DNA of 64,000 nucleotides, taken from NCBI RefSeq assembly GCF_963675165.1, contig NC_087387.1:1973501-2037500 (forward strand), in the 5' to 3' direction. Positions 26,775-63,988 of the stretch are shown here, one piece after another. Each line of letters begins with the position of its first letter. The stretch's first letter is position 1. The position numbers and the translations under genes were made by a program. The DNA is from Halichondria panicea (lineage: Eukaryota > Porifera > Demospongiae > Suberitida > Halichondriidae). The notes under the pieces were generated by a model. That model had not been told where the DNA came from. It did no database searches and was given only the letters and a program-made list of their open reading frames with translations.

Positions 26775-29700
26775 GTATATTGGATTGGACAATTGTATTG
26801 TAATTGGTCATGACCTTCAATACATGACTGTTTGTGTGACACATGCATGCAGACTTGAATGAATGTCTCACCAACAATGGAGGCTGTGAACAGAACTGTA
26901 TCAACACCGAGGGAAAGTTTAGCTGCTCCTGTAACACTGGCTATAAATTGGACCGCAATAAAATCAACTGTACAGGTAATTACGATTTCATCTAGTCGTA
27001 ATTAGTTTCATTCTACATACTAGACATCAACGAGTGTGAAGATGGCACTCACAACTGTGGCCGCAATGCCCTCTGTACTGACAATGTTGGGAGCTTTGCC
27101 TGCACTTGTATGTTTGGCTACACTGGGACAGGAGAGCAATGCGGTGAGTGTGACCTTTTGTAAGCCAAGCCCAGCATGTACCTGAACTCCCCCCACAGAC
27201 TGCGCTGATGGACAGGTCCGGCTGATGAATGGAAGTGAGCCCAGTGAGAGTCAGAGAATGGGAAGAGTTGAGATCTGCTACAACAACACCTATGGCAGTG
27301 TGTGTGACGACTTCTTCAATGAGAATGCTGCAGCCGTTGTCTGCAATGGAACTGGTCAGTTGAATGAACGTGATCATTGATCAGTGAAGTATGACATAGC
27401 TTTTAATTACTTCCTTATTGTATGGACATTTTTTAAGCCCAGTGGTCTTGATGCGCTGTGCCTTAAAAATGAATGTACAGCATAATGGACTGATTTTGCA
27501 CTGACCACAAATCACTGAACAAATCCCTGAGGGAATTAAATGATATATACATGGCAATGCCGCATAGCATAATTATGCTTATAGTATAAACGAGTTCTCT
27601 ACTGTCTGCTTCAATGTCTGTCTTGATAGACACACAGTCACTTATTGAAAGCATCATCAAAGTCATTATTTGAAAATATACCGAAGTGCATACTAAGTCG
27701 AAATGAATTCTGGCTGAAGAAAAGTTGTATCCAAGCCAAGGAGCAAACTAGGTAACCAATCCGCTTCCTTGCCCTTGGGCTATTGATAGCAGCCCCCTCC
27801 CCTCTATCTTAGCCACACACCCCGGGCCCCGATCCTTAGTTAACTGGCATTAAACCAATTTTCAATTATAATGGACATTTGCATATGCGTATGTGCGTGC
27901 ATGACCCAAGATTTGAAAGTATAGCCTCCACTTCGTATGAACAGAGACGTTGTAGTGCATGTAGTGAAGACATACGGTGGCGCATTGTGTGGCAGAGGCA
28001 TGCTCCTGATTTACTGCCCAAGAAAATAGCTGCCAACTTGAGTATAAACTGCTCAACAGTAAGAAAAGAAGATATTTCAGCAGACTGGAAATGTCCGAAA
28101 GAAGCATTACCCTGCTGACAAGGCCTGGAGGAAGATAAATGAAACTGTACAGTTTTTATAGCGTTCCTGTTTATCTACGTGAGATATTGTGATGGAAGTC
28201 AAATTAGTATTGGGTGTTTGGCCCTTACAGAGAGTGCTATCTGCAAGCTAGCTTTCTTAAGAAGACAAGGTTGATTATTATATGAAGTGATACACTTCGA
28301 AAGCACTATACGTAGAAGATGTGTATGTGATTGTCTGTAGGCCTATTATAAAACTGGAATTCGAAAGTATGGATTAGTATTCGAGGAAAGCCAACAGAAG
28401 TTATTGGTTAGAGGAGTAGATAGAACTATACCTTTTAATGTGTGGATGCTATTCAGTTCACAACAAGGTTTAGTGGCTTAAAATCTTTAGAGAGAGTGTA
28501 TTCGTGGTGCTCGCTCCAGCATTGGTCACGCATGAGGACAATGCAAGTTTAACGATTGTGTCTGTTTACTCCTAATACTATATACTTCATTCAGCCATTC
28601 AATGCTAATTTGAACAGCATACTTATCATGTATGGACATGCAACTGTTCAATACATCTGAAATTCAAGAAGTACTAGCAGACAATAATAGCTTGGAGGAG
28701 CTGTTTTGCAGCTTTGGGGTGGGCCTGTTTTACAGCACCGTTGAAGGATCGGGTGTTTTTTTATGCAGTAAAAAATCGAGGGTGAGGTTGTTTACTCTAG
28801 CATTGAGGGGTCCAAATGTTTTGTGGGTCGAGACATTCGCCATGCCAATGTTGAATGGTCAGATACGTACTGGACAAAATGAGCAGATGCATGCAATCCC
28901 ATAATTATGGAACAGTAATAAGTATCTTTCTGACCAGTAAATATATTGTCTGTAGAAGCTGTGCATGGGTATTTGCTAGTTTTAACACACTTACTCAGGG
29001 CGTAATGCATGGTGCATGTATATTGCACGCGCCCTCGCTCCGTCCAAGTGGTTCCCGATACGATGCAGATGGACAATGGTACACCAGTATTGACGGATGC
29101 CCGTGACGATCCGTGAATTTCTGCTATCGCCTGTGTCAGAGTCTCAATACCAAAATTTAACACAATGTTCATACTGCTGTATTATTTGCAACATACTATG
29201 ATGTTCAATGTTTCTTTTCCATGAAATTATGTTGATGTTATTTGACGGGTATTATCTTTTGGCGATTTAATTTAGGCTCTCCGGTTCGTGGCATTGACAG
29301 TACATTTGGTGCTGGTTCTGGTCCCATCACTCTGGACAATGTGGTGTGTGCTGGCACTGAGGACAACCTCTTGAGCTGCTCCCATAACCAGATATTCCAG
29401 CACAACTGCGACCACTCTGAAGATGTGGCTGTCGTCTGTGATAGTGAGCCTACCCTTATAAAATATTATTGAGTAACTATACTTATCAATCCAACCACAC
29501 ACAGTCTCGTGTATTGATGGCAGTACTAGACTGAGAAACTCTGATGCTGTTTCAGAGAGCACCCTTCCAGAATACAACCTCATCAAAGAGCAGGTGTCTC
29601 GTGGTGTGGTGGAGTTGTGTGTGAACGGTGCCTTTAGCAGCCTCTGTGACAGTGGGTGGGACAATCAGGACGCCTCAGTGGTCTGCAGACAACTGGGCTT

Positions 29701-63988: not shown

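Follow-up and report, generated by a model that had tools for sequence, protein, structure and literature searches.

Tandem copies of a multi-exon SRCR/EGF block occupy much of this 64,000-nt stretch of DNA (the window; C11:1973501-2037500, where window coordinate = C11 coordinate − 1973500), raising the question of how many genes they belong to, where the coding sequence ends and what kind of protein it encodes. The initial annotation had proposed cassettes of 23 exons within a single gene for a giant recognition or matrix protein. Following the exon chain past the window and searching the genome (131.5 Mb, 39 contigs), we conclude that the window most likely contains the first half (5′) of a single gene whose predicted product is a giant adhesion GPCR.

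Extent and parts of the gene

Using splice-site and codon models derived from 145 EGF exons, together with an SRCR profile (13 seeds), we chained the exons into a splice-consistent model at C11:1998021-2079519 with 306 exons and 16,665 aa, which runs from a signal-peptide-like start (judged by eye) and a NIDO region through to a stop codon; the coding part of the predicted transcript is 50 kb. Within the window lie 149 of these exons and 8,065 residues, in agreement with the more than 8,000 residues claimed earlier. The features of the gene are as follows:

24521..24730, + strand: exon 1, with predicted start codon, signal-peptide-like stretch and start of the NIDO region (open frame, hydrophobic start)
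25921..26756, + strand: exons 2-5, NIDO (nidogen-like) and Ser/Gly-rich linker (Pfam NIDO)
26853..27143, + strand: two EGF exons ahead of cassette 1 (EGF_CA E 1.5e-14, two stretches; phase 1-1)
27199..34273, + strand: cassette 1, SRCR-a,b,c, EGF1-2, SRCR-f, EGF3-13; 17 domains (ordered projection, 19/23 exons)
34328..40145, + strand: cassette 2, complete, 23 exons, 19 domains (ordered projection)
40201..45396, + strand: cassette 3, complete (ordered projection)
45451..50622, + strand: cassette 4, complete (ordered projection)
50677..56061, + strand: cassette 5, complete, the reference for projection (projection and Pfam)
56116..61441, + strand: cassette 6, complete (ordered projection)
61488..64000, + strand: cassette 7, first part, SRCR-a to SRCR-e exon 1, which ends at 63988 (ordered projection)
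63989..64000 and on to window-equivalent 106019 (C11:2079519), + strand: continuation of the gene past the window

The donor of exon 1 at 24730 joins exon 2 in phase, and joined exons 1-7 match Pfam NIDO (E 6e-42). SRCR-a to EGF2 of cassette 5 match Pfam SRCR in three stretches (5.8e-57), with additional EGF/FXa_inhibition matches. Cassette 7 is complete in the genome, running on to window-equivalent 68162, and is followed by units 8-14, an HRM-like/GPS block 1, an Ig-like stretch, an HRM-like/GPS block 2, a class B 7TM domain, a tail and the stop.

Of the 305 introns, 304 are GT-AG and one is GC-AG; their median length is 57 nt, and six exceed 500 nt. Every one of the model's 277 array exons is phase 1-1, a phase that the EGF seeds and projected exons presupposed, with chaining permitting all phases. 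The coding frame contains a single stop, its last codon, whereas the two alternative frames contain 557 and 1,770; exons were selected to be free of stops, so part of this contrast is built in. The model totals about 76 SRCR and about 150 EGF domains by local profiles (148 EGFs by pattern), the EGF count being partly by construction as well because the local profile was built from these same exons. Array EGFs carry 138 cbEGF-type starts and 135 hydroxylation-type motifs, which fit calcium-binding EGFs.

The chain is home-made and partly hand-corrected, by projection and by reading of exon ends, so single exons may be wrong. EGF7 and EGF8 of cassette 6 (window 60252-60558; C11:2033752-2034058), with a weak acceptor and a required GC donor, respectively, are among the least certain array exons; a 41-nt exon at 2072445 may also be wrong. 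The chained SRCR-d/e exons of cassette 4, which had been fused or misplaced, were replaced by projected or hand-set exons. Candidate exons at 2002181, 2004537 and 2005759 were spurious and were likewise replaced via projection and hand reading; a 342-nt exon at 2062855 was kept, the same exon being present in both paralogues on contig C2.

The introns ahead of units 1-10 are 46-55 nt long and leave no room there for gene ends, which rules out one gene per cassette. This one phase-consistent chain, with short introns between units, supports the earlier claim of a single gene. The same chain reaches, about 35-42 kb past the window, two GPS matches (C11:2073645 and 2077382) and a 7tm_2 match (2078398), on the same strand and directly after the array. 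In the spliced C-terminus, the class B 7TM domain covers profile positions 4-249 of 250 (Pfam 7tm_2 E 2.8e-27), and the GPS matches have E values of 3.7e-14 (block 1) and 5.8e-13 (block 2), the second ending 15 residues ahead of the 7tm_2 match and thus adjoining TM1. Between the blocks lies an Ig-like stretch (E 6.1e-5, under the Pfam cut-off). The HRM match is weak and was seen in the first block only (E 0.03), and no GAIN model matched in the Pfam search of this spliced C-terminus. The HRM-to-GPS regions of blocks 1 and 2 are homologous (BLASTP 2e-16, 26% identity), indicating that the block, too, has undergone duplication. In PDB, the second GPS plus 7TM came nearest to ADGRG2 (1.3e-35), ADGRL3, ADGRG6 and ADGRD1, with ADGRE5 and ADGRE1 also among the matches. 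In translation, block 2 reads CSHLTNFAILV and block 1 CDHLSTFGVFV; HL/T(S) is given as the GPS cleavage consensus in a review of adhesion GPCRs (PMC8878244). Block 2 carries the canonical HL/T residues of a predicted cleavage site, together with a putative tethered-agonist sequence.

Because GPS and 7TM exons continue in phase after the array, we reject a matrix-only protein. The adhesion domains and long N-terminus belong to the same predicted protein as the 7TM, on one open, phase-consistent chain; a sponge aggregation factor or matrix protein would instead be secreted and have no membrane domain. With GPS and class B 7TM on the same exon chain, we class the product, by sequence, as an adhesion GPCR (class B2), a predicted signalling receptor and not a plain matrix protein. 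Of the earlier proposal, a giant surface-type protein stands; the plain matrix or recognition molecule does not, since GPS and 7TM follow.

Could the locus instead be split in two, with one gene for a giant SRCR/EGF protein that is secreted and serves in matrix or recognition, and another, immediately after it, for a smaller adhesion GPCR? In favour of this, the gene structure is a sequence model, and the introns, 46-55 nt ahead of units 1-10 and 80 and 56 nt ahead of units 11 and 12, reach 153 and 156 nt ahead of units 13 and 14 and 126 nt ahead of the HRM exon. Yet 126 nt offers little room for a terminator plus promoter, the reading phase is continuous through the junction, and the same array-GPS-7TM order recurs in the C2 paralogues and in a diverged gene on contig C3, making two genes unlikely.

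The cassette array

Each of the seven cassette starts reported earlier (27199, 34328, 40201, 45451, 50677, 56116 and 61488) coincides exactly with a first SRCR-a exon, from which the reported spacings of 7.1, 5.9, 5.3, 5.2, 5.4 and 5.4 kb follow. The proposed 23-exon order (SRCR-a,b,c, two EGFs, SRCR-d,e,f, eleven EGFs) was recovered in six of these seven cassettes and fails in cassette 1, which is without SRCR-d and -e (four exons), leaving only 387 bp between EGF2 and SRCR-f1; it also has a 1.9-kb intron within SRCR-a. Four copies of a 43-bp tandem repeat lie at window 31896-32072, within the intron that separates SRCR-f from EGF3 of this cassette. By ordered projection of cassette 5, all 23 exons are found in 8 of the 10 tested units of the C11 gene (cassettes 2-9, of which 8 and 9 lie beyond the window). 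Unit 10 combines a cassette-like start with a divergent tail (14/23 exons, five of them weak), and units 11-14 are four more diverged units with related SRCR/EGF alternation. The array thus consists of 14 SRCR/EGF units in tandem: cassettes 1-9, which are of the 23-exon type although cassette 1 lacks SRCR-d/e, and then five older units.

Self-BLAST of a 144-kb region returned direct repeats at an offset of 5.2-5.4 kb and up to 10.7 kb long, with about 80-93% nucleotide identity, introns included (for example, 10.7 kb at 87% and 10.6 kb at 88%), a similarity far beyond chance. A 51-residue SRCR-a marker was found at 94-100% identity in 18 places, 11 on C11 and seven on C2, and at no more than 64% among the other places listed.

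Tandem repeats of 5 kb are difficult to assemble, and the cassettes might be false copies of one or two real ones, as the initial annotation had allowed. False copies would be near identical; here the copies differ at about 7-20% of bases, with no N in the region, and pairwise dS among the cassettes of this gene is 0.147-0.294. Copy-specific structures, such as the missing SRCR-d/e of cassette 1 and a 1.4-kb intron in cassette 7, likewise speak for real copies, and we regard an artefact of this kind as very improbable. Identical copies may conversely have collapsed in the assembly, hiding further cassettes. The cassette-7 intron (C11:2038866-2040295; window-equivalent 65366-66795) carries a dispersed repeat of about 380 bp with at least about 40 further genome matches (40 of 460 candidates scored), which is probably a mobile-element insertion that left the frame intact.

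Paralogues and probable exchange among cassettes

Two further genes lie head to head on contig C2 (C2:6941000-7022400), their NIDO exons about 3.3 kb apart; we refer to the C11 gene as g1 and to these as:

C2, about 6973-7022 kb, + strand: g2
C2, about 6970-6941 kb, − strand: g3

Both were chained automatically, with no hand correction, and each contains NIDO, two GPS, 7TM and units that correspond to the five distal ones of g1. Ahead of these shared units, g1 has nine cassettes, g2 three of the 23-exon type and g3 none, in support of the proposal that length varies with cassette number. SRCR-f exon 2 is diverged in g2 (0.63-0.64 of self-score). The first unit of g3 joins a cassette-like front to the divergent tail of unit 10 (15/23 exons), looking as a crossover product would, and its first GPS reads HLG, not HLS, so this site looks uncleavable.

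A fourth gene, on contig C3 at about 3995-3976 kb (C3:3976000-3995600), is diverged; SRCR and EGF exons alternate in it, and it has two GPS and matches 7TM. The order array, two GPS, 7TM is thereby common to four genes, one on C11, two on C2 and one on C3. No near-identical cassettes were found in the C3 gene among the places listed by the SRCR-a marker search. The same order in a diverged gene without recent cassettes suggests an old origin in this genome for SRCR/EGF alternation before two GPS and a 7TM, with amplification of the 19-domain cassette having taken place in g1 and g2. On contig C15 (C15:5430000-5452400), two tandem adhesion GPCR genes have SRCR exons and exons that we take to be Calx-beta-like and LDLa-like before GPS and 7TM. 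Genome-wide profile searches gave 22 Rhodopsin-family matches (all 38 candidates scored) and at least 164 to 7tm_2, 213 to SRCR and 102 to NACHT (for the last, 102 of 265 candidates were scored). Large sets of NACHT, SRCR and GPCR genes have likewise been described in a sponge (PMC8242945), and the animal is most likely a sponge. A COX1 search of the genome gave one fragment of 64 residues that contains two TGA codons.

Among the eight complete g1 cassettes (28 pairs), dS averages 0.252 (0.147-0.294) and dN/dS 0.21 (0.17-0.26), pointing to purifying selection on the encoded domains. The three g2 cassettes (3 pairs) have dS of 0.148-0.174 and dN/dS of 0.26-0.32, and comparison of g1 with g2 cassettes (24 pairs) gives dS of 0.277-0.352. 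Each of the four trees places the g2 cassettes together in a single group (support 0.999-1.000), indicating that amplification or homogenisation was gene-specific.

Within g1, tree partners change from segment to segment. Cassette 5 pairs with cassette 6 in SRCR-a to EGF2 (0.98) and SRCR-d to -f (0.89), and with cassette 8 in EGF3-13 (1.00); cassette 3 pairs with cassette 4 in SRCR-d to -f (0.99), and with cassette 2 in EGF3-13 (1.00) and weakly in SRCR-a to EGF2 (0.74). Cassette 4 pairs with cassette 7 in EGF3-13 alone of the three segments (1.00). Divergence follows the same pattern, with dS between cassettes 2 and 3 of 0.093 in EGF3-13 versus 0.192 and 0.199 elsewhere, and between cassettes 5 and 8 of 0.125 in EGF3-13 versus 0.182 in SRCR-a to EGF2. 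By these trees the cassettes are mosaics of one another, segment-specific partners marking exchange within the array, and this mosaicism supports length evolution via cassette exchange. If the copies were simply old and kept by selection, with no exchange, one would have a reason for mean g1 cassette dS (0.25) being near the shared-end dS of g1-g2 and g1-g3 (0.24-0.33). The segment-dependent partners and the lower EGF3-13 dS in the two cassette pairs above make that account improbable.

Shared-end dS between g2 and g3 is 0.07-0.16; these ends appear young, yet the two genes differ by three cassettes, which may reflect either gain in g2 or loss in g3. In three of the four trees (all, SRCR-a to EGF2, SRCR-d to -f) cassette 9 falls with those of g2; g2-g3 dS varies by a factor of two from region to region; and at some ends g1-g2 dS does not exceed the mean dS of the g1 cassettes. 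Together, these mean that cassette duplication is not datable against the gene split.

Putative mechanism and known relatives

With array exons in phase 1-1 and copies alike even in their introns, cassettes could be exchanged without a frame break. We propose that unequal crossing-over or gene conversion adds, removes and shuffles cassettes in frame, of which the mosaicism and the 9/3/0 difference between paralogues would be traces. The calcium-binding EGF/SRCR array would form a very long extracellular arm, with SRCR domains binding ligands and cbEGF runs stiffening it; if each of its some 226 domains is about 3 nm long, the arm could span roughly half a micrometre, and cassette number would set reach, valency and force response. 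Self-cleavage at HL/T (possibly also at HL/S in block 1) would leave the arm held non-covalently, and pulling or loss of the arm may then expose the tethered agonist TNFAILV and activate the 7TM, following the model reviewed for adhesion GPCRs (PMC8878244).

This arm would be seldom seen at full length if most products of alternative splicing are shorter or soluble and the complete chain, of about 16,700 residues, is rare or never made; a transcript with a 50-kb coding part may indeed be rare or alternatively spliced. With 277/277 array exons phase 1-1, any exon skip stays in frame and splicing may add diversity, and in the EGF-TM7 receptors of vertebrates splicing changes the number of EGFs. 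Against this, the eight complete cassettes keep open frames with a mean dN/dS of 0.21, so they are used often enough for selection to act, and we hold the predominance of short products to be possible but doubtful.

The EGF-TM7 receptors (ADGRE, CD97) resemble the C11 gene in having calcium-binding EGF exons before GPS-7TM; they have a few EGFs and are not known to carry SRCR or NIDO, whereas the C11 gene adds both, along with far more EGFs. Multiple SRCR domains are shared with DMBT1 and the Geodia cydonium aggregation receptor, which are not known to have a 7TM or GPS; DMBT1 is described as a secreted pathogen binder with germline deletions. Closest in kind are Amphimedon queenslandica Aq712029 and Aq715659, sponge adhesion GPCRs with multiple SRCR repeats (PMC4302439), in whose description there, as far as it was available, an array of such scale, NIDO, double GPS and cassette amplification do not figure. 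Among 40 adhesion GPCRs of sponges, the same source counts 28 with GPS and at least 8 with HRM. SRCR-repeat adhesion GPCRs in sponges are thus already known, and what appears new is the scale, the NIDO, the double GPS and the amplification of a whole cassette. ADGRV1/VLGR1, like the C11 product a giant adhesion GPCR with a long repeat array, is described as a part of fibrous links with a proposed mechanosensing role (PMC8878244); it has Calx-beta repeats and about 6,300 aa, versus SRCR and EGF domains and 16,665 predicted aa here. A comparable receptor was not found among the titles, abstracts and text passages searched in the open PMC literature, and an array of this sort is absent from the available text of PMC12716839, PMC10855680, PMC13197933 and PMC6208332.

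If borne out by long-read cDNA, the predicted receptor would be about 2.6 times the roughly 6,300 residues quoted for ADGRV1 (PMC8878244), and a receptor ectodomain could grow through copying a 5-kb, 23-exon unit whole. The evidence here selects none among allorecognition, aggregation and microbe binding as putative roles, and we offer the gene as a candidate sponge recognition molecule joining SRCR domains to a GPCR. More speculatively, this may be the largest GPCR yet predicted, with an arm variable in length and sequence that recombination maintains; its cassette number and mosaic make-up differ among the paralogues, and it would be, should the arm vary between individuals too, a hypervariable receptor that would discriminate self from non-self, or microbes, in an animal without adaptive immunity. 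With nine, three and no cassettes in one genome, whether cassette number tunes a signalling receptor is directly testable.

Across the window, searches returned no Rfam match at the gathering cut-off and no tRNA. Open frames upstream of the gene encode a methyltransferase domain (window 5375-6166, + strand; Methyltransf_11 E 1.1e-11), a Skp1-like product (14047-14379, − strand; Skp1_POZ E 1.2e-8) and a SEFIR domain, the IL-17-receptor-type signalling domain (15413-16072, − strand; E 2.9e-6). A perfect (GT) dinucleotide run of 169.5 copies occupies window 8065-8403.
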